A stretch of DNA of 64,000 nt from Oceanicoccus sagamiensis (GTDB lineage Bacteria; Pseudomonadota; Gammaproteobacteria; Pseudomonadales; Dasaniaceae), in contig NZ_CP019343.1 of assembly GCF_002117105.1 (NCBI RefSeq), positions 4,216,001-4,280,000 on the forward strand, given 5' to 3'. A model generated the notes under the pieces. That model worked only from the letters and a program-made list of their open reading frames with translations, was not told where the DNA came from and made no database searches. Numbering within the stretch: the stretch's first letter is position 1; every line of letters begins with the position of its first letter. Below, in pieces: positions 5,736 through 53,529 of the stretch. A program made the position numbers and the translations under genes.

Positions 5736-5806
5736 GTAGGGTGGATTATAATCCACCGATATTGGGTAGCTGATGGCTGGGCTTGGTGGATTGTAATCCA
5801 CCCTAC
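5736..5806. repeat. REP/BIME-like paired palindrome, copy 1
   Basis: Two GTAG-headed palindromes face each other. Arm 1 (5736-5757) is gtagg plus the palindrome ggtggattataatccacc sharing its G; arm 2 (5785-5806) is the inverted copy ending ccctac. The loop between them is 27 bp. It lies in the 520-bp gap between cti and sthA. Confidence 0.9.
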
Positions 5807-5872
5807 GATACTGTTATTGCTGGGCTTTACGCCTTTTTCTTTCAAGAAGCCAGAAAGAATATGTGATCCAAG

Positions 5873-5963
5873 GCAGTGAGGGATCTATTTTCAGTGGCGT
5901 CAAAATACAGGAAGAACGACGGCGAGCTGCTAGAACCGTCACCTGAAAACAGACACCTCACAG
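5873..5963. repeat. Imperfect long inverted repeat
   Basis: The segments at about 5873-5896 (gcagtgagggatctattttc...) and 5940-5963 are imperfect reverse complements (shared cores gtgagg, tct and ttttcag) separated by about 43 bp. Only one copy is visible. It could be a second family of palindromic element or a cruciform-forming remnant. No gene is evident in 5807-6076. Confidence 0.45.
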
Positions 5964-6076
5964 CCGGATGGCTAGCACAAAGCTTGCTAAAACTGATATC
6001 TCGAAAGTATCAGATTTGATCCCCCCACCAGCAGAGAATCAAACCAAACAGACGGAATTTGCCAGACAGCAGTGGT

Positions 6077-7473
6077 TTAGGCCTTGGCCTGACGCTGCCC
6101 AACAATATGTAATGCGGCGACTCGGTAAGCCTCTGCCAACGTGGGGAAGTTAAAGATATTTTCGACAAAGGCATCAACATCCATATTGGATAACAGCCCC
6201 ATTTGACCGATATGAATCAACTCCGTAGCACCCTCGCCTACTATCTGCACACCCAGCAAGGTCTTACCCTTGGGGCAGGCAACCATACGCAGTAGGCCAT
6301 CCTGTAAACCGGATATCTGGCCGCGAGCTATCTCTTCAAACCGGGCTACACCAATAATCGGGTCGCCATATTGCTCAATGGCCTGGCCTTCACTCATACC
6401 CACGGTGGATAATTCCGGGATAGCGTAAATACCCGCCGGGATCATTTCTGTCATTTCACCCAGATCAACACCCAGGGCAGCACAACTGGCACGACGTCCC
6501 TGCTCCATTGAGGCTGAGGCCAGAGATGGCGGGCCGATCACATCGCCCGCCGCATAGATATTCTCAACTTCAGTACGGCAATGACGGTCAACCGGAATAA
6601 TGCCACGGTCATTTAATGACAACCCGGCATTTTCTATATTTAACCCTTTGATATTGGAAACGCGCCCCGCCGCTGATAATAATTTTTCACTGCGGTAGAC
6701 ACTGCCATCTTCCAACTCGGTAATTACCTGAGAAACACCGTCCCAATAAACCCGCTTTACATTGGAATCAGGAATAAAACGCGCCCCTTCAGCCTCAAAG
6801 GCGTGAACAAACTTATCCGTTAGTGCCTGATCCAGAAAACCCAATGGGCGAGGATAACGGTCAATCATAGTCACCCGCACACCCAAGCTGGCAAAAATAG
6901 AGGCATACTCACTGGCAATGACCCCGCCCCCAATACCGTTAGGGTTTGTGGTAAATAAATCATCGACAGAATGGAATCACTATCGTAAACATACTCATGG
7001 TCTACTTCGATATTATCGACCTGGCGCGGTACTGAACCGGTGGCAATCACAAAATAATCTGCCGTCAGGCTTTCACTGCTACCGCCGGGCATATTAACGG
7101 TAATAGTATTTTTATCGACAAAGCTGGCGCGACCGTGAATACGGTCAATCTGATTACGGTTAATTTGTTTATTAATATAGTCATCGTGAGCACTGATCAC
7201 AGAATGCATATTATCAATCAGCGCCGCCATTTCCATATCCGGGCGCAATGAGAAGGAAAATAATTCCGCATGATGGCGCAGGTTGGCAATTCTTAACGCG
7301 TTTTCACGCAAGGTTTTACTGGGGATAGTGCCTCGGTGTACACAGGCGCCGCCCAAGACTTTATCCGATTCAACCATGGCGACTTTTTTATTCGCCTTGG
7401 CCGCTTGCACCGCCGCTTTTTGACCTGCCGGGCCACTACCTATAATAATAATGTCGTAATGCTGTTCACTCAT
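6077..7473 (-). pseudogene. sthA: Soluble pyridine nucleotide transhydrogenase, split by a frameshift
   Basis: Cytosolic FAD enzyme that balances NADPH and NADH. The N-terminal part (7473-6871) shows the FAD fold GSGPAGQKAA and CVHRGTIPSK, in which the second redox Cys of disulfide reductases is Thr, as in SthA and unlike lipoamide dehydrogenase. It then reads DSDSILSMIYLPQTLTVLG and leaves frame. The C-terminal part resumes with GVIASEYASIFASLGVRVT (read by eye in the other frame), then GRVSNIKGLN, the second FAD motif YAAGDVIG and the dimer domain, ending at 6077. One extra G in the run at 6927-6931 restores a protein of about 465 residues, the normal SthA length. All catalytic segments are intact, so an indel error is likelier than gene loss. 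Confidence 0.9.
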
Positions 7474-7537
7474 ACCAAACTCACTTTAAACAATTGTCAG
7501 GGTCTTAATTGTCAGGGGCTTAATTGACGGAATCTTT

Positions 7538-8380
7538 TTACAAAGACAACTCGCTAATGGTGTCGTGAACTGAATCACTCTTCTCTAACAGCTGCTGTAC
7601 ATCATCTGCATAGAGATTAATATCAACAATGGTAGCATCGGCACTTAGCGCCGCCTCGTCGTATTGGCGGTCGGCCGTGGTACAGGCAGCAAAGGTTCTG
7701 GCAGCCTTAACCGTGGCGACAATATCTGCCGAAGCTCCACTACCCTGACCGGCAATCCCCAAAATAGTATCTTTAACCGCCGAGGGTAATAACCAATGGT
7801 CCGCCAGTTCACTACCCACCTGGGCTTGATAGCGCTCCATTAATTGTGCGACCACCTCCTGCTCTATATCCATATCATCATCTTTGGCAATATCGAGCAC
7901 TGTTTGTAACACCACCGGACGGCCGATCTGGAATAACAAACCACATAAAAAAGTCGACTCCACATTGCGACGGCCCTGGCGAGCAATTTCACGGGCCCAG
8001 ACCGCGGTGGCCAATGAGGAAATCCAAATCCCCTTCACCAACTCTTCATAACCTTTGGTATTAAACATCTTGGGCCCCATGGTGGCCGCCATAGCAATCT
8101 CTGACATATTTTGCATACCCAAACGGGCAATCGCCTGTTGCAGGGAGGTCATTTTGGCATTGGGACTGTAAGCGGCAGAATTCGCTATACGCATAACATG
8201 CCCAGCCAATGCCTGATCACTCTGGATTAATTTGGCCAGCTCGGCAGCATCCGAGTTAACGTCATTGACTAAGGACAATACCTGAGTGGTTACCTGCGGC
8301 AACATAGGTAAAGCCAAGGCTTTCATAGCTATACGCTTTTCCAGCTGCTGGCTGATCGTATCGATACTTGCTTGGTCCAT
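7538..8380 (-). CDS. HDOD-domain signalling protein
   Basis: A 280-residue, stand-alone HDOD protein, a degenerate HD-type helical domain that usually lacks metal and phosphodiesterase activity and acts in signalling. The start shows the typical KALALPMLPQV segment and then VNSDAAELAKLIQSDQALAGHVMRIANSA, followed by the QQAIARLGMQ helix and the core around WAREIAR. No GGDEF, EAL or kinase domain is attached. It is transcribed on the same strand as sthA, about 65 bp upstream of it, and they could share a transcript. No target can be inferred. Confidence 0.85.
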   Translation of the reverse strand: MDQASIDTISQQLEKRIAMKALALPMLPQVTTQVLSLVNDVNSDAAELAKLIQSDQALAGHVMRIANSAAYSPNAKMTSLQQAIARLGMQNMSEIAMAATMGPKMFNTKGYEELVKGIWISSLATAVWAREIARQGRRNVESTFLCGLLFQIGRPVVLQTVLDIAKDDDMDIEQEVVAQLMERYQAQVGSELADHWLLPSAVKDTILGIAGQGSGASADIVATVKAARTFAACTTADRQYDEAALSADATIVDINLYADDVQQLLEKSDSVHDTISELSL

Positions 8381-8571
8381 AGACTGCTCACTTAAAAGGG
8401 GGTTGTTAGTCCAATTTGTTCTTTGACTATCAATAGTTTAGATCATCTTTTTAATAACTAAAGGCTAGCTGCATGCTGCAAGGTAGCTAGCATGGACTAT
8501 TTCAGCCAAAACTGTGTAAAAAACAACCTAACAAGAGTTGTCAGGCGCCAATCAGGTCACTAAGGGGGGAA

Positions 8572-8838
8572 TTAACTGCGGTGTCTGCCAGCCGCGGTAT
8601 AAAGCGGAAAATCGCCATTTTGTCGGTTATCCATAGCTGAAGAATGGTTATGGGGGACCGCTATAATCACATTAAGCTCGCTAAGTCGTTCGAGGGAAAG
8701 CTCACAGAAGTCCTGCATATCTTCGTGGGGGTCGGCAATAGCAACAGCCTGGCCGTGTGAATGACTGGCCGGATTGCAGGCTAGCAATAGGCAGGAAATT
8801 AGTAATACCGGGCAAACACTTAGCAGTTTATCCATCAC
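8572..8838 (-). CDS. Small putative lipoprotein, uncharacterised
   Basis: An 88-residue product with an N-terminal hydrophobic segment ending in a lipobox-like LLAC (Cys21 or so) followed by NPASHSHG, so it is probably exported and lipidated. The mature part is short, His- and Asp-rich near its start (SHSHG, DPHEDMQDF) and shows no family I recognise. The His clusters might bind metal, which is speculation. It lies alone between the HDOD gene and the divergent truC, with about 180-190 bp of unassigned sequence on both sides. Confidence 0.5.
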   Translation of the reverse strand: MMDKLLSVCPVLLISCLLLACNPASHSHGQAVAIADPHEDMQDFCELSLERLSELNVIIAVPHNHSSAMDNRQNGDFPLYTAAGRHRS

Positions 8839-9018
8839 TCACCATCCTTTGACAGGCCAACCTCTTGTTAGCCTTCTGATACCCTTTAGCTCACATGACC
8901 TCATAGCTCGATTGATTCATTGACAAGGGGACCAGCCAATAGCTTAATCAACTACTTGTGCAATGGATAGAATTATTAAGCTCTAATCAAAATGTATAAT
9001 AGTTAAATTAATTATAAG

Positions 9019-9786
9019 ATGGGTTACTTAAGAGCCCCTCAGGCAGCAGCAACTGTGAATAGCTTAGCGATCATTTATCAGGACCCCTATCTAGTGGCCA
9101 TCAACAAGCCCAGTGGGCTATTGGTACACCGCAGTAAAATTGACCGCCATGAGACTCGCTTTGCCCTGCAGATGCTGCGGGACCAGTTGGGGCAACATGT
9201 TTTCCCCGTTCACCGCCTGGATAAACCTACATCCGGGGTGTTGTTGTTTGCACTATCCAGCGAAATTGCCCGCCAAGTATCCCAGGCTTTTGCCAACAAC
9301 CAGGTCAGCAAAAGCTATCTTGCCATTGTCAGGGGCTGGTGTGCGGAGCAAGGCACAATTGATTACGCCTTGAAAGAGCAGCTGGACAAAATGACCGATA
9401 AACTTAGCCGCAGCGATAAGCCAGCCCAAACGGCAGTCACGCACTTTAAGCGCTTGGCCACAGTGGAATTACCCTTCGCCGTCGACAAATACCCACAAAG
9501 CCGCTACTCCTTGGTGGAGGCAAAACCCATCACCGGTAGAAAGCACCAGCTGCGCCGACACTTTAAGCATATTGCCCACCCCATTATCGGTGATGCCAAA
9601 CACGGCAAAGGCAGCCACAATCGCTTTTTTCAAAGCCAGTTTGATTGCCACCGTTTGTTATTAGCCTGCACATCCCTTAGCATTCCACACCCAATCAGTG
9701 GGGAGATGGTCAAGCTTGATGCACCACTGGCTACTGATTTTCAATCAGTCATTGCGCAACTGGGCTGGTCTTCGCCTATAAACTAA
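9019..9786 (+). CDS. truC: tRNA pseudouridine(65) synthase TruC
   Basis: Makes pseudouridine at position 65 in the T-stem of tRNAs. It has the RluA-family fold without an S4 domain. The catalytic Asp is in HRLDKPTSGVLL, with INKPSGLLVHRS upstream and PITGRKHQLRRH downstream; the last two are closely TruC-like rather than RluA- or RluD-like. At 255 residues it matches the family. The annotated ATG gives about 15 residues before the conserved LAIIYQDPYLVA, so a later GTG at 9055 is an alternative start. Confidence 0.92.
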   Translation: MGYLRAPQAAATVNSLAIIYQDPYLVAINKPSGLLVHRSKIDRHETRFALQMLRDQLGQHVFPVHRLDKPTSGVLLFALSSEIARQVSQAFANNQVSKSYLAIVRGWCAEQGTIDYALKEQLDKMTDKLSRSDKPAQTAVTHFKRLATVELPFAVDKYPQSRYSLVEAKPITGRKHQLRRHFKHIAHPIIGDAKHGKGSHNRFFQSQFDCHRLLLACTSLSIPHPISGEMVKLDAPLATDFQSVIAQLGWSSPIN

Positions 9787-9864
9787 TAACACTAAGCACA
9801 GCAGAACTGAAAAATAGTAGAACTGGTATAGTACAACTGACAATAAAACGAATAAGGGGAAACA

Positions 9865-10263
9865 ATGAAATTAGCGCGAGGTTTTTTAATTTTCAACGGT
9901 CTGATTTTTGGTAGCTACGGCATCCAGTGTCTGCTTGACCCCGCCGTAGTCTCTGAACTGACGGGTATGCAGCTCAGCACTAATACTGCGATTATCGAAG
10001 TTCGGGCTATGTATGGCGGCTTGCAACTCACCATGGGCCTCTACTTGTTGTACTGCGCGATGCAAATAGTGCGTGTCTCACAGGGTTTATTGGTGGCGAT
10101 TTTTATTTTTGCAGGCATGGCTGGAGCTCGGTCTTTTGGCTTGGCGATTGACGGTGGCGATAGTGGCTATAATATTGCGGCCACGGCCTACGAATCTATT
10201 TGCGGTGTGATTGCCGTATTCTTACTGCAAAAAAGCCATCAAACCACCACCGCGGGCACATAG
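9865..10263 (+). CDS. DUF4345-type small integral membrane protein
   Basis: A 132-residue protein with about four hydrophobic helices (roughly residues 5-25, 45-68, 72-92 and 105-122) and the conserved EVRAMYGGLQLTMGLYLLYCA stretch (listed in part) typical of DUF4345 proteins; function unknown. An AGGGGAAA ribosome-binding site lies 6 bases before the ATG. Its 3' end overlaps the convergent thioesterase gene by 25 bp. It follows truC by 78 bp and may be co-transcribed with it. Confidence 0.75.
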   Translation: MKLARGFLIFNGLIFGSYGIQCLLDPAVVSELTGMQLSTNTAIIEVRAMYGGLQLTMGLYLLYCAMQIVRVSQGLLVAIFIFAGMAGARSFGLAIDGGDSGYNIAATAYESICGVIAVFLLQKSHQTTTAGT

Positions 10264-10682
10264 GTTTCAATAAAGGCGGCTGGCATTCTCGAGGGCTTAT
10301 TGGTCGACAGATTGATGCATACCAGCTGCCAACTGCCACGAAACAAGCACTGCCCGGTGCTGTTATTGATCATCTGGAAGCTACGCTGCATGGTTAAGCG
10401 GCCATCACAGCCGGTTAACCAGGTAGCCACACTGATGTTATCGCCAACAAAACTCGGGGCCAAATAATGGTAGTTGGCTTCGTGAATAGCCATAGCGATT
10501 TTCATTTCACGGTAGTCCTTGCCCGTTAGGCCCAACTCGGTGGAGTGTGCCCAGGCAGCCTGCTCACACCAGTCGTTATAGATACGGTTATTGGTATGAC
10601 CAAGCTCGTCGATATGCTGATCATCAACCGCTACGGTGATGATAAAAGGTTGTGGGTAGTCCCAATGAGTTGCCATTATCAA
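10239..10682 (-). CDS. Acyl-CoA thioesterase, YbgC/4HBT-like hotdog fold
   Basis: A 147-residue single-domain hotdog protein. The segment DDQHIDELGHTNNRIYNDWCEQA matches the 4-hydroxybenzoyl-CoA thioesterase signature in which an Asp/His-Asn block precedes the long helix (key residues H, D, E, L, G, H, N, N). It probably hydrolyses a cytosolic acyl-CoA of unknown chain. The next gene upstream on this strand is the truncated haemoglobin, 17 bp away, so both are likely in one transcript. Confidence 0.82.
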   Translation of the reverse strand: MIMATHWDYPQPFIITVAVDDQHIDELGHTNNRIYNDWCEQAAWAHSTELGLTGKDYREMKIAMAIHEANYHYLAPSFVGDNISVATWLTGCDGRLTMQRSFQMINNSTGQCLFRGSWQLVCINLSTNKPSRMPAAFIETYVPAVVV

Positions 10683-10699
10683 TACCCTTGTTCTGCCTT

Positions 10700-11080
10700 T
10701 TAATTGCCAACCGTGCTGACGGCCTTTTCCATATTGCTAGCAATTTGCGCTGCCACGGCTTTTGCCCGCTCAGCATAACTACCAGCAAAACGCTTATCAA
10801 CGGTCTCGGTAAATAAGTTTAACCAGCGCTTAAAGTCCTGAGCTGTTAAGGGGCGTTTGGCATGCACCGCACGATGAATATTCATGGTATGGCGCTGGTA
10901 ATCGCGACTGCCTAGTAACAGTTTTTCCCAGTAGCTGCGGATCAGTGGCAAATGTTTGGCCAGATCGATTGCTGCTACATCGAGAAAAATAGGGGCTAAC
11001 TGACGGTCTTTTAGCATATCGGCGTAAAAGGCATCGACAAAGGTTTTAATCTGTTGGGGGGAATCCAGGTCTGGTTTCAT
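10700..11080 (-). CDS. Group III truncated haemoglobin
   Basis: A 126-residue globin of the trHbP class. It starts at the B-helix region TFVDAFYADMLKDRQLAPIF, carries the YWEKLLLGSRDYQRHTMNIHRAVH segment, which includes the likely proximal His (HRAVHAKRPLTAQDF), and then the FKRWLNLFTETVD helix. The family binds haem and handles O2, NO or peroxide; the physiological ligand is not known here. It lies 23 bp downstream of der and shares its strand, but no functional link with Der is known. Confidence 0.88.
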   Translation of the reverse strand: MKPDLDSPQQIKTFVDAFYADMLKDRQLAPIFLDVAAIDLAKHLPLIRSYWEKLLLGSRDYQRHTMNIHRAVHAKRPLTAQDFKRWLNLFTETVDKRFAGSYAERAKAVAAQIASNMEKAVSTVGN

Positions 11081-11103
11081 CAGCTCGGCAACCTGAATAA
11101 AGA

Positions 11104-12516
11104 CTATTTTTTGCGCTTTTGGGTGATACGTTTACCCGCCTGATTTTTAACCCTGGCTTTACGCTCCTGCTGACGCTTGCTGGTGTTTTCACGCTTTTCT
11201 GCAAAGGGGTTTTCACTGCCTTTAAATTCTATGCGTATCGGCGTACCAATTAAGTCCAGCTCACGGCGAAACACTTTTTCCAAATAACGACGGTAGGCAC
11301 TGGGCACTTTGGCGGTCTGATTACCGTGAATAATAATAATCGGCGGATTGGAGCCACCGGCATGGGCATAACGTAATTTAATACGACGACCATTAATCAT
11401 GGGGGGCTGGTGGTCAAATACCGCGCCCTCTAGAATTTGAGTCAGCTTATTGGTTTGCAGGCTCTTCATCGAGGATTGGTAAGCGCTATCTACCGACTCA
11501 TACAGATGACCAACACCGGTACCATGCAATGCTGAGATAAAGTGAATTTCTGCAAAATCAATAAACTGTAAACGGCGTTCCAATTCGCTTTTTACCCACT
11601 CTTTATGGTCGGCATCGAGGCCATCCCATTTATTCAGTGCGATAACCAGAGCGCGACCGGCATCGATGGCCTGACCCAGTAAGTGCAGGTCCTGATCGAC
11701 CAAACCTTCCTGAGCATCCATCACCAATACCACAACATTGGCATCATCAATCGCTTTTAGAGCTTTAACAATGGAGAATTTTTCTACCGCTTCTTTAACA
11801 TTTTTACGACGGCGTACACCAGCAGTATCAATCAGAGTATAAGCTTCACCTTCACGCTCATAATCAATATAGATACTATCGCGGGTGGTACCGGGGTGAT
11901 CGTAAACCACCACACGTTCTTCACCTAACAGGCGATTAACCAGAGTTGATTTGCCGACATTGGGGCGGCCAATAATCGCAATTTTAGTACCGCGTCTTGC
12001 CTCGTCTTCCTCATCAACTTCTGGCTTGGGGAAGTGCTGCATCATATCGTCAACAAGATTGCGCACACCTTTGCCATGGGTGGCAGTCATTGGATAAAGC
12101 TGGGGAATACCTAACTGATAAAAATCAGCCATGGCGACATTGGGATCTACGCCATCAATTTTATTGGCGACATAAAATACCGGTTTATCAGATTGGCGCA
12201 ACCTATGGGCAAGTACTTCATCACCCGCTGTCAGTCCGGCACGGGCATCACACAGAAAAAATACCGCATCGGCCTCATCAACCGCCTGCATGGATTGCTC
12301 GGCCATGGCCGCATCAATCCCTTCTTCTTCACCAGTAATACCGCCGGTATCAATCACAATAAAATGGCGATCGCCAACCGTGGCGTCACCGTATTTTCTA
12401 TCGCGGGTTAAACCGGGCAAGTTGGCTACCAGCGCATCACGGGTTTTGGTCAGGCGGTTAAACAATGTCGATTTACCGACATTGGGACGACCTACCAAAG
12501 CAATTACTGGAACCAT
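11104..12516 (-). CDS. der: Ribosome biogenesis GTPase Der (EngA)
   Basis: Essential double-domain GTPase for 50S subunit assembly. Two G domains are visible: [14 protein letters not shown] near residue 8 with DTGG as G3, and [14 protein letters not shown] near residue 182 with DTAGVRRR as G3. Both have NKxD motifs (ANKIDG, LNKWDG). The C-terminal KH-like domain and a very basic tail ([13 protein letters not shown]) complete 470 residues, the normal length. It is the last gene of the conserved hisS-yfgM-bamB-der run. Confidence 0.98.
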
Positions 12517-12559
12517 AGGGGAATAACCGTGTTAAAACTATTAGGGGTAACTATTGGCC

Positions 12560-13738: not shown

Positions 13739-13741
13739 TGC

Positions 13742-14473: not shown

Positions 14474-14530
14474 GATCTACTCTCTTCAATAAGTTATTTG
14501 CTACTGTTCGTTATTATGCGCGGTATTTTA

Positions 14531-20444: not shown

Positions 20445-20513
20445 GTAGGGTGAATTATAATCCACCAAATAGCGATGCAGCGGTTGTGGAAGGTGGATTG
20501 TAATCCACCCTAC
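20445..20513. repeat. REP/BIME-like paired palindrome, copy 2
   Basis: Arm 1 (20445-20466) is gtagggtgaattataatccacc with one change breaking its palindrome; arm 2 (20492-20513) is the inverted copy. The complement of ccctac in arm 2 supplies the TAG stop codon of sufE (20510-20512). Confidence 0.9.
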
Positions 20514-20920
20514 AAGGCAGCCTTGGCTATGGCCTGAATCCTGGCCACTATCGCCTTGAGGCCATTACCTCTGGTAGGGCTTAAATGGCGCTCTAAATCC
20601 AGCTGTTGGAAGTAGGCATCCATATCAAAAGCGGTGATATCAGCGGCGCTTTTGCCGTTATAGGCCGCCATCACCAACGCCAGCAGGCCCCGGACAATAT
20701 GGGCATCGCTATCGACGGTAAAGCTCAGCACAGCATCAGCGGGCTGCACATCCAACCAGACATTGCTCTGGCAGCCTTTTACCAGTCTTTCCGGGGTCCT
20801 CAGCGCCTCATCCATCGCCGGCAAATCCTTACCGAGGTCGATAATATACTTATAACGCTCCTCCCAATCGTCAAAAAAGGCCAGATCGTCAAGGATTTCA
20901 TCGGTGGTTGCCAGGCTCAT
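20510..20920 (-). CDS. sufE: Sulfur acceptor protein SufE
   Basis: Takes persulfide sulfur from SufS and passes it to the SufBCD scaffold. The 136-residue SufE fold is evident, with the acceptor Cys50 in RLVKGCQSNVWL. The C-terminal helix reads HLSPTRGNGLKAIVARI, characteristic of the family. It is the last gene of the suf run; its stop codon lies inside a REP-like repeat. A gap of 50 bp separates it from sufT. Confidence 0.96.
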   Translation of the reverse strand: MSLATTDEILDDLAFFDDWEERYKYIIDLGKDLPAMDEALRTPERLVKGCQSNVWLDVQPADAVLSFTVDSDAHIVRGLLALVMAAYNGKSAADITAFDMDAYFQQLDLERHLSPTRGNGLKAIVARIQAIAKAAL

Positions 20921-28550: not shown

Positions 28551-28612
28551 GCAGGGTGGATTAAAATCCACCATTAAGCATGCTGGTTTTGGTGGATTTT
28601 AATCCACCCTAC
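28551..28612. repeat. REP/BIME-like paired palindrome, copy 3
   Basis: Arm 1 (28551-28572) reads gcagggtggattaaaatccacc, its GTAG head changed to GCAG; arm 2 (28591-28612) is ggtggattttaatccaccctac. Arm 2 supplies the TAG stop codon of trmJ (28609-28611). The element sits between the trmJ 3' end and the iscR regulatory region. Confidence 0.9.
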
Positions 28613-29388
28613 TGCTTATTTTTTGCCTTGTTTACCCATTGCTGGGTTGAGGTCAGGATGCCACGCATCATCTGTACTTCAAGGTCATCCATACGAGTGC
28701 GGCTATAGAGGCGACGCAGGCGAGTCATTAGCTGCTTGGGGGCCTCGGGGTTTAGGAATTCCATATCAATCAGGGTTTCTTCGAGGTGGGTATAGAGACG
28801 TTCGACCTCATCAACTCGGGCAAAACGGGTATCCCATTCCTGCATTTCATCGTCACTAAGCTCGCCTTCTAGCTGGCGCATACGCAGCTCGTAGGTAACG
28901 ACCTGAACCGCCATCCCGAGATTCAGGGAGGTGTAGTCTTCGCTAGCGGGGATATTAACGTGTAAATGACAGGCTTGTAGCTCTTCATTGGTTAAACCGC
29001 GGTCTTCACGGCCAAATACCAGAGCTACCGGGTGCTGTGATAACTCAGGATACACCTTATCGGCACAGACCCTGGGGTTAACCAGTGGCCAGGGAATACG
29101 GCGACCACGGGCACTGGTACCGACGACCAAACCACAATCCGCCACAGCCTCTTCCAGCGTCTCAACGACGGTGGCATTCTCCAGTAAGTCCACCGCACTG
29201 GCGGCGCGCCAACCGGCACGCTCATGAGGGAAATCCTTGGGCTTAACCAGACATAAGTCCTTTAGCCCCATATTTTTCATCGCGCGGGCAACCGCGCCGA
29301 TATTACCGGGGTGGGAGGTATGTACCAGTACAACACGGGCATTATGGAGTGGATTTGGGGTAGTCACGGCAACCTGCTTTATCATCAT
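28609..29388 (-). CDS. trmJ: tRNA (cytidine/uridine-2'-O-)-methyltransferase TrmJ
   Basis: SPOUT-fold enzyme methylating ribose at position 32 of tRNAs. Motifs seen: NIGAVARAMKNMGL near the N-terminus, ALVFGREDRGLTNEEL, and the knot-forming IPASEDYTSLNLGMAVQVVTYE. Length 259. The stop codon falls in a REP-like repeat. In Pseudomonas trmJ lies next to suhB and iscR in the same arrangement, usually with cysE in between; no cysE is present here. Confidence 0.96.
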   Translation of the reverse strand: MMIKQVAVTTPNPLHNARVVLVHTSHPGNIGAVARAMKNMGLKDLCLVKPKDFPHERAGWRAASAVDLLENATVVETLEEAVADCGLVVGTSARGRRIPWPLVNPRVCADKVYPELSQHPVALVFGREDRGLTNEELQACHLHVNIPASEDYTSLNLGMAVQVVTYELRMRQLEGELSDDEMQEWDTRFARVDEVERLYTHLEETLIDMEFLNPEAPKQLMTRLRRLYSRTRMDDLEVQMMRGILTSTQQWVNKAKNKQ

Positions 29389-30491: not shown

Positions 30492-31523
30492 GTGAAAGCC
30501 TCTCGCTCACAAACTGCATTATACAATACCAAGGTATTGCTTAAGCGACTGATGTCCTCTCAATGCTCCATTGAGGGTAACTTTGTTCACCCCTGTGTGA
30601 TCAAAGGCCAGGAAACGCTGGTTCACGCCCATGACCTGGCGCTACGGGATCCGGCTTTTTATCAACAACTGCTAGAGTATGCGAAGGCCAACCACTATGC
30701 ACTGGTGGCGGATAGACGGACTCAGGATAACCCGGACCAGCAAGGTCGTCGCCGGGCATGGTTGCCGGTTATCGTTTTGTCATTGGGTTTAAATGCTGTA
30801 GCAGCCGCAGAAAAGCCCTCCGCCCATGGCGGTTTTAATAATCAGCAAGGCCAGTCAGTATTAAGCTTATTTCATCCGACGGATCATGATGAAGCGGCCC
30901 ACCTGACAATCGGCGAAACCGCTGACCACTCTTTTGACAATCATTTTGAATATGAGCTTGAGCCCTCTGAAGGCAGTGAAGCCATTGAAAGTATTTTGCT
31001 GGATCACTACCAATCTGCCGCCAATGACCCCAGCCATATCCAAGCCGATCTGGTGCAAATTGCCCGTTACTTAAGCCAATACCCTGAAGCCGTTGCACTG
31101 ATTAGTAGTCTCGCCGATAAGCCCTGGAAATTACGCCACGCCGACGATACCTTCGAAACGGAGGTGCGCGGCAATGCCTTTCAGGTGCAAGCAGTCGACA
31201 TTCGTTTTGATAGCCGTGCAGCGGCTAAGCTGCGCTCTCATCGCAGCTGTGAAACTCAGGCCAATGCCTGTATCGCCTCCCCCGCCGATGCTCTGCTGCA
31301 TGAGTTACTGCATGCCCGCAGCGCGCTACTGGAAACCAAAACCTTTATTGCCCAAGGTGGCATGAGCAGTGTGTTATACCCCTATGCCCATGAATATGAT
31401 GTGATCAAAAAAGAAAATGCATTATATAAAGCAATGAGTATGAAAGACGGTGTGGTCAGGCCACAGCGTCACCGCCATGCTGGGAAACTGGTTGCCAGCT
31501 CCTGCTCATTCTGCATCCAGTAG
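30492..31523 (+). CDS. Putative membrane-anchored zinc metallopeptidase (M91/NleD-like HELLH)
   Basis: A 343-residue protein with no close family I can name securely. It has a hydrophilic N-terminal 85 residues, a basic RRR followed by one hydrophobic helix (about 90-105) ending AAA, an acidic His-rich region (108-160), and a C-terminal domain with HELLH at 270-274 in ADALLHELLHARSALLE and a downstream AHEYDVIKKENALY (His300, Glu301), as expected for a zincin third ligand. The HELLH-plus-E-x-N layout recalls peptidase family M91 (NleD/HopH1 effectors). It uses a GTG start; ATG at 30552 is an alternative. The stop codon lies in a REP repeat. Enzymatic activity is inferred, not shown. Confidence 0.6.
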   Translation: MKASRSQTALYNTKVLLKRLMSSQCSIEGNFVHPCVIKGQETLVHAHDLALRDPAFYQQLLEYAKANHYALVADRRTQDNPDQQGRRRAWLPVIVLSLGLNAVAAAEKPSAHGGFNNQQGQSVLSLFHPTDHDEAAHLTIGETADHSFDNHFEYELEPSEGSEAIESILLDHYQSAANDPSHIQADLVQIARYLSQYPEAVALISSLADKPWKLRHADDTFETEVRGNAFQVQAVDIRFDSRAAAKLRSHRSCETQANACIASPADALLHELLHARSALLETKTFIAQGGMSSVLYPYAHEYDVIKKENALYKAMSMKDGVVRPQRHRHAGKLVASSCSFCIQ

Positions 31524-31577
31524 GGTGGATTATAATCCATCTGACAGGGCTACAAGGTGGATTGCAATCCACCCTAC
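31520..31577. repeat. REP/BIME-like paired palindrome, copy 4
   Basis: Arm 1 (31520-31541) and arm 2 (31556-31577) are separated by only 14 bp. The element bridges two convergent genes: its left TAG (31521-31523) stops the metallopeptidase gene and its right end, read on the minus strand (31574-31576), stops the DUF1289 gene. Confidence 0.92.
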
Positions 31578-33894: not shown

Positions 33895-33960
33895 GTAGGG
33901 TGGATTGCAATCCACCAACCCCCATTGTAAAAAGTTCTGGTGGATTATAATCCACCCTAC
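33895..33960. repeat. REP/BIME-like paired palindrome, copy 5
   Basis: Arm 1 (33895-33916) gtagggtggattgcaatccacc and arm 2 (33939-33960) face each other with a 22-bp loop. The element occupies most of the 89-bp gap between tgt and the NIF3-like gene on the minus strand. Unlike copies 2-4 it provides no stop codon. Confidence 0.92.
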
Positions 33961-45770: not shown

Positions 45771-45836
45771 ATAACATCTACAGGATAGCGATAACGCGGT
45801 GATTATAGCAGGCTTTTGCCGGCTATCGGGTGGGCA

Positions 45837-46679: not shown

Positions 46680-46693
46680 AAATACCGTTTGTT

Positions 46694-47278: not shown

Positions 47279-47509
47279 AAAGTGGGTACTGGCTTTGCAG
47301 TTATTTGATGGCGAATAGTAGTGACTATACCCCCCGCAATCAAGGTATTAGGGGCAGCAAATAGGTACATTTCCTCATTGTAGGCCCACTCAGGAGAATT
47401 AAGCTGGGCGGGTTGAGATTCATTGACTAAACTGTGGTAATAGATTGAATTTATTAGATAAGTTGGTCATAGGTTAAGATCACACTCCCGACGGAAGCAA
47501 GAACCCACT

Positions 47510-48760
47510 GTGAAGAAGACTATTGTAAGGCCTGGCCGTACCATCCAGGAAAACGTCAAAACCCCCATGCCGGTTTCAGGGCTTAAGGTGGGCATGTACG
47601 TATGCGAGCTGGACCGGCCCTGGTTGGAGACACCGTTTATTTTGCAGGGTTTTAAAATCACCAGCATAGAAGAAATTGACACCATTGCAGAACACTGTGA
47701 ATTTGTTTATATCGAAGGTAGCGAAGATGCCTGGCTGGACGCGGAAGAACGCAGCGCCGCCACTACCCCTAAAGCCAAAGTCAAAACCTACACCAATAGC
47801 GCCACCAATAAACAGGAGTTTTCCAAGGCCTCTTCTATCCATGAAACAGCCAGAGGCCTGACCCGCTCTTTTATGGATGATGTGCGCCTTGGTCAGGGTA
47901 TTAATATTCAGGAAGTGAAAGCCAGCGTCTCCGATTGCGTATCGAGTATTTTACGCAACCCCGACGCAATGATGTGGATGTCTAAAATCCGCAAAAAAGA
48001 TGAATACACATCTGAGCACTCGCTCAATGTTGGCTTGCTCGCCATTACCTTTGGCCGCCATTTGGGCGCCAGCGAAGAAGATTTAAATAAATTGGGCCTC
48101 GCAGGTATGCTGCATGACGTGGGCAAGATGCGTACCCCTAATGACATTCTGAATAAGGAAGGACAGCTCTCGGCGGAAGAATTCAACGTTATTAAAGACC
48201 ATGCGGTGCACGGGCGCGATATTTTAATGGCCCATAAAAATGTATATCACGGCGCCGTGGATGTTGCCTATAGCCACCATGAAGCTCTCGACGGCACGGG
48301 TTATCCCCGTAAGATTAAAGCCTCCGGTATCACCGACTTTACCCGTATTATTACTCTCTGCGATGTTTACGATGCGATTACCAGTGACCGTATTTATAAG
48401 CAGGGGCGCTCTTCCCTCGATGCTTTGAAAATCATGTACCAAAATAAAGGCACCAAGTTTGACCATAAATTGGTGGGGGAATTTATTAGCTGTATAGGGC
48501 TTTATCCACCGGGCAGTATTGTGGAATTAAAAAATGGTCAGGTAGGTATTGTGATCAGTACCAATTATCGCCATCGCCATTTACCCAAAGTGTTATTGCT
48601 ACGCGATGAAAATAAAATGCCCAAGCCCGAATCCGTACTAGACCTGGAGCGCTATGCCAAATCTCAGGACCAGAGCGTTATGATCAAAACGGTTATACCT
48701 AACGGTTCTCACGGTATTCGTATTGAGAGTTATATCCAGAAGGGTTTGACAATCGATTAG
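47510..48760 (+). CDS. HD-GYP domain cyclic-di-GMP phosphodiesterase with DUF3391
   Basis: A 416-residue signalling enzyme. The N-terminal DUF3391 (about 19-145) begins VSGLKVGMYVCELDRPWLE. The HD-GYP domain shows EHSLNVGLLA, the metal pair in AGMLHDVGKMRTP, and HHEALDGTGYPRKI with the GYP motif intact, then TLCDVYDAITSDR. It should hydrolyse c-di-GMP. It is transcribed alone, about 230 bp downstream of the divergent nitroreductase. Interaction with the nearby PilZ protein is only suggested by location. Confidence 0.94.
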   Translation: MKKTIVRPGRTIQENVKTPMPVSGLKVGMYVCELDRPWLETPFILQGFKITSIEEIDTIAEHCEFVYIEGSEDAWLDAEERSAATTPKAKVKTYTNSATNKQEFSKASSIHETARGLTRSFMDDVRLGQGINIQEVKASVSDCVSSILRNPDAMMWMSKIRKKDEYTSEHSLNVGLLAITFGRHLGASEEDLNKLGLAGMLHDVGKMRTPNDILNKEGQLSAEEFNVIKDHAVHGRDILMAHKNVYHGAVDVAYSHHEALDGTGYPRKIKASGITDFTRIITLCDVYDAITSDRIYKQGRSSLDALKIMYQNKGTKFDHKLVGEFISCIGLYPPGSIVELKNGQVGIVISTNYRHRHLPKVLLLRDENKMPKPESVLDLERYAKSQDQSVMIKTVIPNGSHGIRIESYIQKGLTID

Positions 48761-48763
48761 AGC

Positions 48764-49057
48764 TTATTCCAGGTTTGGGTCTGTCAAACCACCCGCCACA
48801 GCAGCAACCATATCTATCACTTTTTCAAACTTATACTCAAAATAGCTGTATAAAGGAAAACCTTGCAGTTTTTTCTCCAGTACTTGCTCACTTTCAACAT
48901 CAAATACTATCCAGTAATGCCGGTGGTTTTCTGTGACATAAAACTGGCTAATAACACCGCTGGCCATAAGCGATTGAGTGTATTCGTTTTCTGCTTTGCC
49001 CCTCTTCATATACACATCATGGGGAACCGGTTTTAAGGTCATAGTAACGATAAACAT
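48764..49057 (-). CDS. Small muconolactone-isomerase-like protein, uncharacterised
   Basis: A 97-residue protein starting MFIVTMTLKPVPHDVYMKR and reading HYWIVFDVESEQVLEKKLQGFPLYSYFEYK (listed in part), which resembles the ferredoxin-like fold of muconolactone delta-isomerase-type proteins; no function is assigned. The ATG at 49057 is preferred to the longer frame from 49129, which would overlap the methyltransferase by 67 bp. It follows the FkbM gene by 5 bp and is convergent with the HD-GYP gene. Confidence 0.6.
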   Translation of the reverse strand: MFIVTMTLKPVPHDVYMKRGKAENEYTQSLMASGVISQFYVTENHRHYWIVFDVESEQVLEKKLQGFPLYSYFEYKFEKVIDMVAAVAGGLTDPNLE

Positions 49058-49062
49058 AGCGC

Positions 49063-49875
49063 TTATTTTCCCAGTAATATATTCATAAAGCCCTGATCTT
49101 GCGGATTGGTTTCTACCATATCCACCCACTCCCTAAGCTGCTGCTCAGTGCAATCTACTAAGTCATGGCCAATATGATCAATAATTTTTATCGGCAAATC
49201 CAGAGTGCTTAGCATATCAACTAACTGGTGGGCGCTTGAACCCGACTGCCGCAAACCATAGGGCCAGAACTCAATAATCATAGACAGTTTAACGCCACTA
49301 TTTTTTAACAAAGGTAATAAACCGGCAATCACTTCTGACTCTGCTCCCTGAGTATCAATTTTTAATAGATCAATGTGTTGAATCTTTGCCTGTAAATAAT
49401 TGGCGCCGTTAATTAGCCGAATAGACCGTGAGGCTCGCCCCTCCCCCGCGTCATAAATTTGGTGGTCACCAAAATTACTGCAACTTAAAAATAATCTGCC
49501 GTCACTATCCTTAGCTGACAAACCGGCATTGACGGCATCAACATCAGTAAACTGGTTATGCTGGAGATTTTTTTGTAGTAGTTGGTAATTGTCCGGATCA
49601 GGCTCAAAGGCGGCAATAAATCCTGTTCCTGCTAATTGGTCGGCAGCGATGACACTGTAATAACCAATATTGGCACCGACATCAATGACATTAATACCCG
49701 GCTTTAAACGCTCTATAAATAATTGGGTTTCATAGCTTTCCCAAATACCCTGCTCGGCAATCCCTTTGGAAACATGCTGGTCACGTTGATCGTGTACCCA
49801 GAGGCTAACCGTTTGATGAAGGCTGGGGATATTTAAAGGATAAGGAGAGGTCGTACTTTGACTCTGTAAAGTCAC
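49063..49875 (-). CDS. FkbM family SAM-dependent methyltransferase
   Basis: A 270-residue methyltransferase. The SAM-binding motif is INVIDVGANIGYYSVIAADQL (listed in part: IDVGANIGYYS), followed by AFEPDPDNYQLLQKN and the family-specific DLLKIDTQGAESEVIAGLLPLL (listed in part: KIDTQGAE). It should methylate a sugar or small metabolite, possibly of a surface polysaccharide; substrate unknown. No glycosyltransferases are adjacent. A PilZ-domain gene lies upstream. Confidence 0.85.
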   Translation of the reverse strand: MTLQSQSTTSPYPLNIPSLHQTVSLWVHDQRDQHVSKGIAEQGIWESYETQLFIERLKPGINVIDVGANIGYYSVIAADQLAGTGFIAAFEPDPDNYQLLQKNLQHNQFTDVDAVNAGLSAKDSDGRLFLSCSNFGDHQIYDAGEGRASRSIRLINGANYLQAKIQHIDLLKIDTQGAESEVIAGLLPLLKNSGVKLSMIIEFWPYGLRQSGSSAHQLVDMLSTLDLPIKIIDHIGHDLVDCTEQQLREWVDMVETNPQDQGFMNILLGK

Positions 49876-49910
49876 TATTGGCTGTACCTTATGTATGATG
49901 AATAGTCGGC

Positions 49911-50324
49911 TTATGATGAATAGTCAGCGGCGTATTTGGCAATCCATTCAGCGGCGGCCTGATCCCCATCCAGCAGACGCCCTTCTCGCTCGTAAACTAA
50001 ATTTTTATACTGCTCTATTTGGCAGACCTGTTGCACCATGCGCGATTTAAACGCTTCTTCATTATTGGTAAAACGCACACCGACTTCGTAGCTTTCGCCC
50101 TTTTCACGGCACCAGACGACTTCGCCTGAACCCTGGTATACCGGTGATACCGAATCAATCTGGATATCAACGATGGAGCCGACAGCCACTTTACAATCGA
50201 CCTCACAGGAAAGACCGCCCTGACTAACCGTGGTCATACTACAGGCCGGGTTAGCCGTTTGCGGAAGCACGGTGACTTTCACATCGATAGGAATATCTGT
50301 TGGGTGTCGAGCAAATCGTCGCAT
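49911..50324 (-). CDS. PilZ domain c-di-GMP-binding protein
   Basis: A 137-residue protein with the PilZ signature: N-terminal basic RRFARHP (binding arginines), then TVSQGGLSCEVD and YEVGVRFTNNEEAF. The domain fills the first 100 residues; the rest is helical. It likely binds c-di-GMP. It lies about 1.1 kb from the HD-GYP phosphodiesterase, which would set the ligand level, but a link is not shown. Confidence 0.88.
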   Translation of the reverse strand: MRRFARHPTDIPIDVKVTVLPQTANPACSMTTVSQGGLSCEVDCKVAVGSIVDIQIDSVSPVYQGSGEVVWCREKGESYEVGVRFTNNEEAFKSRMVQQVCQIEQYKNLVYEREGRLLDGDQAAAEWIAKYAADYSS

Positions 50325-50444
50325 AACGGCTGCCTACTCCGTTTAACCAAATATCCATTGATAGTGTGCCGATCTCCCTGATCGCCTGATTAACTATGCT
50401 CCAGTATAACGAAATCCACCCCGCTGCAAAGACCAAAATGCGAT

Positions 50445-52307
50445 TTAAAGCAGCTCCGCATAGGGCGATGTGACATCCAACTCAATATCAAACTCGTAGC
50501 CAGGCACTTTGATTTTACTGCTAGAGAAGTCGATATCCTCACCACCCAACACATTGTGATCAAATTTGTAGATCGGTAATGCATCGCCCTTCATAGCAGA
50601 CTCATCGTAGGCCGCAGCCTGCTCCAGAGCAGCTTCATTACGGGTTTTATAGGCGGTCATGGCCTCTTCACCGTATTTATTACTCAGCATGGTTTCAACA
50701 ATATGGGGGGCTATCACCGTCGCTGATGCATTATTTCCACCAAAGCCTTTAGCGTTAAGAATAGCACTATCAATATTGCGAGGGCCGACATCAATATGGG
50801 CACTACCCAGTTGCAGATTGCTTTGGTAAACATCTTCAGCCACATGATCAATGGTGCCAATACCCGGAATTATGCCATCGTTCCAAACACCTAGCGTGGC
50901 CATAATCTGGTCACCCGGCGATGAACCCAAGGAATGACCTACATAGGCTTTAATGGCCGCTACCGGCCAGTTTTCAATACCAAACACCTTGGCGGTTTCA
51001 TTGAGAATATGCGACTCGGACACTCGGTTTTGTGGGGTACTGGTGCCATGGGCCTGAACAAAGGAGCGCTGCCTAACAGACTCATCACCCAGCAAAGCAC
51101 GAGCCGAAGCTACAGCTTTGGCCATGGTGATATAGTTGCCTACGCCAGGGGAAGAAATCGACTTTTTATGGCCATCGGCATTAACAAACACATCCGTTAC
51201 TGCGCCATGAATAGTGGCACCCAACTCCATTGCCAACTCATCATCCATCAGCACAATATATTGCGATGACTCGGCAATGGTAAAGCCACAGTTGCTACTA
51301 AAAGGTCTGGCAGCGCGGCGATGATCCGGGCTGTTTAAACCCAGTTTTGCATCTAACTCTAACAGTGCCTGGTCCGTTGCCAATGCCCCCATCGCGGCAT
51401 AGCCTTCCATTACATCAGATTCAACCGGTGCTTCACTGCTGCCAATAACCACTACCCGTGCAACACCATTTTTGATATCGCTAACAGCGGCGCGCAGGTT
51501 ATAAAGAAAAGAGGCACAAGCACCCACATAGGTGCCGGTATTACCCATACTGCCGAGCACATAGGCATTAATAAAGTCCGCTGACATTTCCGCCAAACCA
51601 AAGGGGCAATGTTTGGAGGTGGTGCGTTTATCGTTATAGCGGGCGCCTAACATACCACCATGGCCGTGCTGGTCCAGCTGCCCCATGGCAGAACCGGCAT
51701 ACACACTGATTTGATCTGGAGAAACATGCTGGCAAACTACATCCCAATCGATACCCATGGATTGCACGGCATCGGACGCGCCATACACAGCCATTTGCAA
51801 ACCACGGGGATGGCTGCGGGCCGGGTATAAACTGCCGGGATCAAAACCACTGGGCAATTGGCCAGCAGCCTGCACTGTAATACCGCGCTTAGTGGGGAAC
51901 ATAAACTCGGTTTCGCCCTGGATATCCACCTTGACCATTTTGTCTTCGATAGCAGTCACCTGCCAATTGTCGGGGATATGCTGGGGTAAATTACGGGCTT
52001 TGGTAATAAAACTGGCGGAATCATCACCGGAGACACTGACGGGCATACGTTTATTAATACGGATACCATCCACCTGAAAGCGTTCATCTTCAATCTTGCG
52101 GATCAGGGTATGGTCACGGATAAACTGTTTTTGCTGCTCAGTACCCTCAAATTCCAGCTTCATTAAACTCGCCAGGCTGCGGTAGGTCTGATCAGCCTTA
52201 TCCTGAGACAAAGCATCCAATATCAAGCGGCGGTAACCGTGGTTAAAAGAACTTCTACCGGCGGTGTTTATCCCGCCATAACCGGTAATTACTGGAATTC
52301 GAGCCAT
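50445..52307 (-). CDS. fabY: Beta-ketoacyl-ACP synthase FabY-like
   Basis: A 620-residue condensing enzyme of the type found in Pseudomonas FabY, which starts fatty acid synthesis by condensing acetyl-CoA with malonyl-ACP. It begins MARIPVITGYGGINTAGRSS, as FabY does, with about 200 N-terminal residues beyond the FabB fold. The triad is present: Cys in GACASFLYN, His in VQAHGTSTPQN and His in YVGHSLGSSPGDQ. The tail reads YEFDIELDVTSPYAELL. The gene faces away from a GlxA-type regulator at 52437, separated by 129 bp. Confidence 0.9.
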   Translation of the reverse strand: MARIPVITGYGGINTAGRSSFNHGYRRLILDALSQDKADQTYRSLASLMKLEFEGTEQQKQFIRDHTLIRKIEDERFQVDGIRINKRMPVSVSGDDSASFITKARNLPQHIPDNWQVTAIEDKMVKVDIQGETEFMFPTKRGITVQAAGQLPSGFDPGSLYPARSHPRGLQMAVYGASDAVQSMGIDWDVVCQHVSPDQISVYAGSAMGQLDQHGHGGMLGARYNDKRTTSKHCPFGLAEMSADFINAYVLGSMGNTGTYVGACASFLYNLRAAVSDIKNGVARVVVIGSSEAPVESDVMEGYAAMGALATDQALLELDAKLGLNSPDHRRAARPFSSNCGFTIAESSQYIVLMDDELAMELGATIHGAVTDVFVNADGHKKSISSPGVGNYITMAKAVASARALLGDESVRQRSFVQAHGTSTPQNRVSESHILNETAKVFGIENWPVAAIKAYVGHSLGSSPGDQIMATLGVWNDGIIPGIGTIDHVAEDVYQSNLQLGSAHIDVGPRNIDSAILNAKGFGGNNASATVIAPHIVETMLSNKYGEEAMTAYKTRNEAALEQAAAYDESAMKGDALPIYKFDHNVLGGEDIDFSSSKIKVPGYEFDIELDVTSPYAELL

Positions 52308-52436
52308 TTTATATCCTGTCTGGGTAATACGTCGTCGTTATAAGTAATGTAGCAATTGCAGAACATTTTACTTGGAAAACGGCTATTAAAATAAAACTAA
52401 AAGGACATATAATAGAGCTTTTACGCCAATCACCGA

Positions 52437-53438
52437 TTGAGGCATCTATCTGTGCAACATATCACCATTCTGGCCCCGCCCACCTGCCTGGCTACCAGTA
52501 TTAGCCTGCCACTGGAAATCCTTAATGCGGCCAATGAGCAGGTACGTACCCGCAACCGTAAACAACCCCGCCTACAGATAGAGATCGTTAGCCAGCAACT
52601 GGGGCCGGTAGTCACCGCCGGTGGCTTAAGTATTGTGGCCACGGCAACACCGGATATGATCGAACAGACAGATCTGGTGATTATCCCCTCGCTATGGCGT
52701 AATCCGGTCAATAATTTGAAAAAACACCGCTGGATTATTCCCTGGTTACAGCGCCAGGCGAAACAGCAAAGTTTAATTTGCGCGGTGGGTACCAGCAGTT
52801 ATTTTCTGGCTGAGGCTGGCTTGTTAGATAATCAACCCGCCACGACCCACTGGTATTACTGTGACCAATTTGCGCAGCGCTACCCACAGGTAGAGCTTAA
52901 GCGTCAATACTTAATTACCCAGGCCGACAGGATCTATTGTGTGGGTAGCGTTAACTCGATTGCCGATTTAATGGTGCACTTTATCCAGCAGCGTTATGGC
53001 CAGGCAATTGCTCGACAAGTTGAAGGCCAATTCTCGCCGGAAATTCGTCGCCCCTTTGCCGACCACGCCTATGCGGAAGAAGCCAGCAGCCCTCATCAGG
53101 ATGAAACCATTATTGAGGCGCAGGAGTGGCTGCAACGGAATTATCGCGACAATATTCACCTGTCAGAATTAGCGGCTACATTAGACCTTAGCCCGCGCAC
53201 ATTTAATCGGCGTTTTAAACAGGCAGTTGGAACTACAGCTAGTGACTATTTGCAAAACCAACGTCTGGATAATGCCCGGGAGCTACTACGTACCAGTAAT
53301 TTGAGCATTCAGGAGGTCGCCTCCGCGTCGGGCTATCAGGACAGCAGTTATTTTTGCGGACGTTTTAAAAAAGCGATGGGGCAAACTCCACTGGCTTACC
53401 GCAAGTCAGTACGGGGAAAATTATTTAAAGTGATTTAA
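52437..53438 (+). CDS. GlxA-like regulator: DJ-1/PfpI domain + AraC helix-turn-helix
   Basis: A 333-residue protein with a DJ-1/PfpI-type N-terminal domain (about 1-190; ICAVGTSSYFLAEAGLLDN with a Cys-like nucleophile elbow AVGTSS lacking the typical Cys) and a C-terminal AraC domain (LSELAATLDLSPRTFNRRFK and SIQEVASASGYQDSSYFCGRFKKAMGQTP). The start is a TTG at 52437 (GTG at 52452 is an alternative). It is divergent from fabY, which may be its target; this is inferred from arrangement only. Confidence 0.85.
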   Translation: MRHLSVQHITILAPPTCLATSISLPLEILNAANEQVRTRNRKQPRLQIEIVSQQLGPVVTAGGLSIVATATPDMIEQTDLVIIPSLWRNPVNNLKKHRWIIPWLQRQAKQQSLICAVGTSSYFLAEAGLLDNQPATTHWYYCDQFAQRYPQVELKRQYLITQADRIYCVGSVNSIADLMVHFIQQRYGQAIARQVEGQFSPEIRRPFADHAYAEEASSPHQDETIIEAQEWLQRNYRDNIHLSELAATLDLSPRTFNRRFKQAVGTTASDYLQNQRLDNARELLRTSNLSIQEVASASGYQDSSYFCGRFKKAMGQTPLAYRKSVRGKLFKVI

Positions 53439-53467
53439 CAAGAGATGTAATACAATCCCCCGAAGCA

Positions 53468-53529
53468 GTAGGGTGGATTAAAATCCACCTTCACAAAACA
53501 CTAATACGGTGGATTACAATCCACCCTAC
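53468..53529. repeat. REP/BIME-like paired palindrome, copy 6
   Basis: Arm 1 (53468-53489) gtagggtggattaaaatccacc and arm 2 (53508-53529) ggtggattacaatccaccctac flank an 18-bp loop. It fills most of the 107-bp gap between the glxA-like gene and the BamA-like barrel gene, both on the plus strand, and might act as a transcript-end structure. Confidence 0.92.

Follow-up and report, generated by a model that had tools for sequence, protein, structure and literature searches.

What are the six short, nearly identical elements scattered over a 64,000-nucleotide (nt) stretch of the Oceanicoccus sagamiensis chromosome, and what has spread them? The stretch, called the window here, covers positions 4,216,001 to 4,280,000 of NZ_CP019343.1. 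An earlier note had described the elements as a family resembling repetitive extragenic palindromic (REP) sequences and bacterial interspersed mosaic elements (BIMEs), linked to a REP-associated tyrosine transposase (RAYT), and this link is supported by the GTAG-tagged inverted pairs and by a RAYT gene that has these repeats on either side. We conclude, with a probability of roughly nine in ten, that the six elements are REP doublets forming hairpins (REPINs), also known as HH dimers or BIME units, and that they belong to a single GTAG-REP family found throughout the genome, which the one RAYT encoded there most likely maintains and spreads in trans. The observations behind this conclusion concern the sequence, copy number, pairing and placement of the repeats, the RAYT framed by them and the co-inheritance of RAYT and REP class.

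All six elements lie where they had been reported, and each joins a plus-strand REP to an inverted minus-strand REP. REPIN 1 (5736..5806) is composed of REP (+) 5736-5757 and the inverted REP (-) 5785-5806 with 27 bp between the palindromes; REPIN 2 (20445..20513) of REP (+) 20445-20466, which has one stem mismatch, and REP (-) 20492-20513; REPIN 3 (28551..28612) of REP (+) 28551-28572, which has a GCAG head, and REP (-) 28591-28612; REPIN 4 (31520..31577) of REP (+) 31520-31541, again with one stem mismatch, and REP (-) 31556-31577; REPIN 5 (33895..33960) of REP (+) 33895-33916 and REP (-) 33939-33960; and REPIN 6 (53468..53529) of REP (+) 53468-53489 and REP (-) 53508-53529. Spacers of 14-27 bp, as described before, were measured in all six pairs. 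The GTAG head that had been called conserved is present in 11 of the 12 REPs but not at 28551, and ten stems are identical to GGTGGATTNNAATCCACC, with those at 20449 and 31524 each carrying one mismatch. A window scan for GGTGGATTNNAATCCACC allowing up to 3 mismatches returns 12 sites, every one inside the six pairs, versus a mean of 0.22 and a maximum of 2 in dinucleotide shuffles of the window. When folded as single-stranded DNA (ssDNA) a lone REP forms a 7-bp stem with a 4-nt loop and leaves GTAG unpaired, while the six whole elements each pair end to end with z scores of -4.9 to -9.1 (-8.8 for REPIN 1).

The family extends over the whole 4.47-Mb genome (G000). A search with the 22-mer arms, GTAGGGTGGATTNNAATCCACC, which had been proposed as a check, found 592 exact copies (301 forward and 291 reverse), and the reversed-pattern control found 0. 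A sister form, GGAAT..ATTCC (GTAGGGTGGAATNNATTCCACC), has 37 copies genome-wide, and a pattern allowing longer interiors, GTAGGGTGGATTN{3,24}AATCCACC, has 3 matches: a long hairpin GTAGGGTGGATTAGCGGAGCGTAATCCACC, a REP with an extra centre base and a REP followed by a chance AATCCACC. Further counts were made in an 864-kb sample (40 systematic 20-kb stretches plus the window) and a 1.664-Mb sample (80 stretches plus the window). The larger sample contains 262 GTAGGGTGGA heads, 253 of them of the short form; the others have interiors one base shorter (1), one base longer (1) or 14 nt long (1), or have no partner arm (6). Any further class combining GTAGG with a perfectly matched 7-bp stem was seen at most once in this sample. 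In the smaller sample there are 188 palindromes with up to 3 core mismatches, versus 3 for the reversed core, and 182 of them have a GTAG-like tag when one mismatch is allowed. The head is exactly GTAG in 176 of the 187 elements selected with at most one head mismatch, and in 147 of 158 distinct elements after removal of duplicated copies. The situation that the earlier note had named as contrary to its view, in which copies are confined to a few loci and the GTAG end is lost, is therefore not the one found.

Neighbouring palindromes no more than 60 bp apart in the 864-kb sample comprise 76 pairs with GTAG outside, 21 with GTAG inside and 6 in the same orientation, so that among the 182 tagged palindromes the BIME plan of an inverted REP pair is recovered 76 times. 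Spacers of these 76 pairs span 14-28 bp, with 26-27 bp the commonest (45/76, a figure inflated by tandem arrays). Such arrays of near-identical units occur, for example, in 115-bp steps near 450 kb and in 162-bp steps near 663 kb. The proposal that the middle bases of the palindrome vary in complementary pairs did not hold. Among 143 distinct elements with at most one core mismatch (out of the 158) the centre is limited to AT, AC, GT, AA and GC, and the observed and expected counts agree with independent variation of the two positions (AT 74/73.3, AC 28/31.1, GT 18/18.7, AA 12/9.6, GC 11/7.9). Left and right partners share a centre in 22 of the 76 pairs, compared with 24.1 expected. Since the centres are independent, the selection on the palindrome or its GC frame that had been deduced from them is unsupported. 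Just one double compensatory change in the stem is frequent, the replacement of T-A by A-T at pair 11/16 (7/158 distinct elements), and this change, which constitutes the GGAAT subtype, may be one inherited event.

A Y1_Tnp search of the genome, which as a transposase search covered the Y1 and RAYT families, identified one RAYT gene at G000:C1:1512316-1512834 on the minus strand, encoding 172 amino acids (aa). It thus sits outside the window, as had been stated of the transposase. The protein matches NF047646 (REP-associated tyrosine transposase) with an E value of 6.7e-60, far over the cut-off, and the structure of Escherichia coli TnpAREP (PDB 4er8) with an E value of 8.8e-45, and contains the motifs DHLH, WE and YIFYNP. 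Three further matches to NF047646 in this genome are weak and partial, all below the cut-off, in 328-aa frames. The presence of the same repeat on the flanks of a RAYT gene had also been suggested as a check, and REPs are found on both sides: GTAGGGTGGATTATAATCCACC lies 5 bp past the stop codon, a GGAAT-form REP lies 25 bp ahead of the start, and additional copies are found farther out. In the mixed clusters that frame the gene (L031:1225-2000) the rare GGAAT form occurs five times and the common GGATT form twice.

TnpAREP has been reported to recognize GTAG plus a hairpin in ssDNA and to cleave at CT dinucleotides (PMC8266576). By analogy, the O. sagamiensis RAYT, a TnpAREP-type Y1/HUH single-strand nuclease, would recognize the unpaired GTAG foot together with the 7-bp stem and its TNNA loop in ssDNA, cut beside the hairpin and move the inverted pair as a unit. 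It would thus act likewise on bulge-free hairpins, with the inverted pair as the mobile unit.

The association of RAYT and REP class is also seen in other organisms. We examined 81 loci, consisting of the O. sagamiensis RAYT locus and 80 homologues (the best 80 of 580 confirmed among the matches listed; 45-61% identity; genomes of several phyla). A GTAG hairpin lies within 150 bp of the RAYT at 69 of the 81 loci and on both sides at 56, and at 50 of these 56 both sides carry the same 4-nt stem class. For five control tags the corresponding numbers were 3-19 loci with a hairpin on any side and 0-1 with hairpins on both. When REP class is placed on the RAYT tree, the 63 rows with a single class require 17 changes, versus 33-44 (mean 38.8) in 200 shuffles. 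REP class thus follows the RAYT tree, showing co-inheritance of RAYT and REP class across these 63 loci. Tree supports come from a quick method, with the O. sagamiensis RAYT falling within no starred clade, and four of the 80 homologues (L086, L093, L095 and L096) have an internal stop as fetched and were omitted from a second tree.

Several observations weigh against the conclusion that the RAYT spreads the family. A GTAG hairpin within 150 bp is absent at 12 of the 81 loci, and the arrangement with a plus-strand REP on the left and a minus-strand REP on the right is found at only 30 of the 56 both-sided loci, the others being reversed (11) or on the same strand (15). Additionally, REP class was compared with the RAYT tree and not with the host tree, and the RAYT is single-copy in its genome and may be domesticated. 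Finally, recognition by this RAYT is an extrapolation, because a bulge is required by E. coli TnpAREP (PMC8266576) and absent from the REPs of this RAYT.

Near relatives give a view of how the family may have grown. The exact REP was found in only three of the 57 genomes searched, with 592 copies in O. sagamiensis, 30 in G002 and 28 in G006. A RAYT family search found no match in G002 or G006, the absence being based in G002 on the hldE-like locus as well as the search, and in the fragmented G006 assembly (660 contigs) on the family search. At the corresponding locus in G002 (L304, G002:C17) the two genes that flank the RAYT in O. sagamiensis are adjacent, with the contig ending in the second, and the junction, which follows the hldE-like gene, holds a REP-like TAATCCACCC. 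The same two genes are also RAYT-free in G003. The sequence at the G002 junction suggests a REP scar left by loss of the RAYT. On the simplest reading a common ancestor of O. sagamiensis and G002 would have had both RAYT and REPs, with the RAYT subsequently lost in the G002 lineage and the REPs amplified in that of O. sagamiensis. These relatives also contain double-foot REPs, which are single 26-bp palindromes tagged at both ends (GTAGGGTGGATTNNAATCCACCCTAC; L187, L188 and L189 in G002, L196, L198 and L199 in G006). Double-foot REPs are known for RAYT subclass 2.4, possibly as central deletions of an inverted pair (PMC6006769). At L275 (G002:C4) a different inverted repeat, of the TTCCCGCGCAGGCGGGAA type, fills a convergent gap that holds a REPIN in O. 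sagamiensis. G001, of the same genus and without an exact window REP, has a GTAGGGTGGAACTTGTTCCACC hairpin abutting the TAG stop codon of one gene (L276), a GGAAC REP-like variant.

The main alternative is that the elements are mainly RNA elements recruited by the host, serving as 3' mRNA stabilizers or bidirectional terminators and maintained through selection on expression, in which case the RAYT would be a bystander. Placement is in its favour. In the 864-kb sample 6 of 72 REP sites are mostly inside open reading frames (ORFs), where simple ORF calls cover 85% of the sequence. The other 66 are tandem (36), convergent (23), divergent (3) or unresolved (4), and random intergenic bases are 57% tandem, 19% convergent and 25% divergent. 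The elements therefore lie 3' of genes, and as whole elements (folded as DNA) they also fold strongly, with the z scores of -4.9 to -9.1 given above. On the other hand, expression-based selection does not account well for a near-uniform sequence that includes the unpaired GTAG (176/187 elements), for tandem arrays of near-identical units, for a REP class that follows the RAYT tree, the tree with which it was compared, in loci from several phyla, or for the 30 and 28 copies in the two close relatives that gave no RAYT match versus 592 here. We therefore consider this alternative very unlikely. With RAYT-driven spread, REPINs would accumulate between convergent and tandem genes because the cell tolerates copies that arrive immediately 3' of genes, and protection of mRNA 3' ends, ribosome stalling or termination would be possible secondary host roles; stalling at REPs within 15 nt of stop codons has been described (cited in PMC12306157). 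That the elements are ordinary miniature inverted-repeat transposable elements (MITEs) of another transposase, or chance palindromes, is scarcely credible despite the short inverted-repeat form and many copies, as chance is excluded by 592 versus 0 control copies genome-wide and 12 versus 0.22 in the window, and a GTAG foot with a hairpin starting right after it, with the same hairpins framing the RAYT, fits a RAYT substrate, in a genome searched for transposases of the Y1 and RAYT families.

The type of RAYT involved is of interest in relation to its REPs. The protein is 48% identical to E. coli TnpAREP over 160 residues and 24-33% identical to three group-3-like proteins, a label that comes from their REPs and length and not from a reference protein. 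The split between the E. coli side and the group-3-like side has a support of 100, with two of the three group-3-like proteins long-branched. By identity, tree position and motifs (DHLH, WE, YIxYNP) we assign the O. sagamiensis RAYT to group 2 (subclass 2.2). Group 2 RAYTs of this subclass go with long REPs that have a bulge or irregular zone (PMC8266576; in the 'majority' of cases according to PMC6006769), and restoring a regular stem eliminated the activity of E. coli TnpAREP, for which the bulge is needed (PMC8266576). Short, generally perfect palindromes are a feature of group 3 (PMC8266576; PMC6006769). The REPs adjoining the O. sagamiensis RAYT are 18-nt perfect palindromes and so lack the long or bulged form, a group 2 trait that is not strict given the word 'majority'. 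The part of the tree to which it belongs (26 rows; support 88) contains 21 other identified REP sets, all long and irregular, and 4 further rows with no REP within 150 bp. We rejected the possibility that perfect REPs are unique to this RAYT within group 2, since about eight other loci (L072, L081, L083, L095, L096, L104, L105 and L111, identified partly by hairpin reading) share short perfect REPs. Several of these loci that were kept in the rooted tree branch near its base, with weak support. The short perfect REPs of O. sagamiensis may be a secondary simplification, and a group 2 RAYT with minimal perfect REPs is a departure within a known kind.

We also considered the residue at the position of K82, which contacts the bulge in E. 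coli TnpAREP and aligns with Thr in the O. sagamiensis RAYT. Among the 21 RAYTs in this part of the tree whose REPs are long and irregular, 20 have Lys, Arg or His at the equivalent position and L050 has Ser. A simple rule linking this residue to the bulge was nevertheless rejected, as RAYTs with short perfect REPs elsewhere are basic here (Arg in L072, L081, L083 and L104; His in L105), with Ser in L111, and as Ser or Thr is found in many RAYTs whose irregular REPs belong to other classes.

The GTAG foot is also used as a stop codon. Considering ORFs of at least 100 aa and the 220 distinct GTAG heads in the 1.664-Mb sample, 28 heads have an ORF running into them, and the TAG of the tag is the stop in 25 and in another frame in 3 (binomial p 1e-9 against one third). 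For GTAGs outside REP heads, TAG ends such an ORF in 70 of 8265. For 124 heads the end of a same-strand ORF lies nearby, and in 22 of these the distance to the stop is 0, the next commonest distances accounting for 5 and 4 heads. At the RAYT loci the bias to the TAG frame is weak (TAG 11, AGG 8 and GTA 3 among 181 class-matched heads), and of the 30 heads in 20 stretches of G002 and G006 two close an open frame of at least 70 codons, both in the TAG frame. In the window the stop of ORF 20510-20920(-) is the TAG of the minus-strand head of REPIN 2 (20513), that of ORF 28609-29388(-) the minus-strand head of REPIN 3 (28612), and that of ORF 30492-31523(+) the plus-strand head of REPIN 4 (31520). 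One REPIN supplies both stops of a convergent gene pair at L156 (4358/4428) and at L163 (849/911), and an array does so at L229 (8245/8708), in each case taking up the whole gap between the two stops.

For eight of the 25 gene ends we compared orthologues, and protein ends are equal or within 0-2 residues apart from a variable-length end at 28612 and one L163 orthologue. At 31520 both REP-free orthologues (G002 and G003) share the end residue and have a TAA stop. The first gene of L156 has the same end residue in 8 of 8 REP-free orthologues and its convergent partner in 1 of 1 (G002). The first gene of L163 has the same end in 4 of 8 orthologues, while three are 1-2 residues longer and one differs; its partner is within one residue of two orthologues, and the L229 gene within one residue of one. 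Relative to its orthologues in G001, G003 and G005, all without the element, the protein ending at 20513 is shorter by two residues. At 28612, where end length varies, G002 and G006 have a single REP at the same stop and G001, G003 and G005 have none. The orthologues use TAA or TGA at 31520 and L229, for the L163 partner and for both genes of L156, and TAG occurs in some orthologues of the first L163 gene and of the gene ending at 20513. Frequent use of GTAG termini as TAG stops has been reported qualitatively (PMC3733652). The overlap as such is therefore already known, and what is new here is the orthologue comparison of the stops supplied, together with the counts.

How REPINs reach these sites bears on RAYT action. 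One possibility is that REPIN gain often replaces the stop codon and 3' flank, with the GTAG foot becoming the new stop, through stop-codon-directed or replacement action of the RAYT or through a very fast deletion ratchet after insertion. Clean insertion would leave the native stop on one side, so a stop is expected there. When the flanks of the 25 stop-supplying heads are joined with 0-3 nt trimmed, a stop appears within two codons in 6 and not in 19. These 19 would reflect either post-insertion deletion up to the stop or target replacement at some sites. Re-paired flanks give 6.3 on average, a control that is uninformative because the outcome depends mostly on the right flank. At 31520 a 1-nt trim gives CAG TAA, which would allow for a clean insertion that left the native TAA downstream, and a TAG stop is already present in G002 and G005 at the first gene of L163; both results led us to lower our estimate for replacement slightly. 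Intergenic-gap replacement as a general rule is unsupported, as REP-bearing gaps are not generally shorter. At convergent REP sites (n=34, ORFs of at least 100 aa) the median residual without REPs is 130.5 bp versus 58 bp for 179 REP-free gaps (p 0.91). Compared with REP-free gaps of 20 bp or more, these 34 residual gaps are shorter (p 0.012), and their mean is 162 bp where length-proportional insertion would predict 570 bp. Residual gaps at tandem REP sites (n=54) are not shorter. Because there is no general shortening of REP-bearing gaps, we regard frequent replacement as unlikely.

The RAYTs that accompany the REPINs of Pseudomonas fluorescens SBW25 are group 3-like, unlike the group 2 RAYT described here. 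The SBW25 REPINs are similar to those of O. sagamiensis in being inverted REP doublets with a short spacer, predicted hairpins and a RAYT (Bertels and Rainey 2011, PMC3116915). The GTAG-tagged REP superfamily (Di Nocera et al. 2013, PMC3733652) has in common with the present family an unpaired GTAG beside a short stem-loop in many copies, HH dimers, tandem clusters, intergenic convergent or unidirectional placement, GTAG used as a TAG stop and a RAYT flanked by REPs; it differs in that the stop-codon overlap is here counted and compared with orthologues. The exact family was not found described in the literature searched, where the 24 consensus sequences in a figure of PMC3733652 lay outside the comparison, and a search of the text of that paper, figure consensuses excluded, gave no match to GGTGG. 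The RAYT itself resembles the subclass 2.2 TnpAREP of E. coli in its HUH, WE and Tyr motifs, its similar length (172 aa) and its 48% identity, and differs from E. coli-type group 2 systems in that their published REPs are mostly long and irregular or bulged (PMC6006769) and its own are 18-nt perfect palindromes.

A group 2 RAYT accompanied by hundreds of perfect minimal palindromes constitutes a natural test, on a small substrate, of the bulge rule, which comes from the single group 2 enzyme studied. Additionally, the reuse of GTAG as a stop codon with protein ends hardly changed offers a way into the question of the sites at which REPINs arrive and the manner of their arrival.

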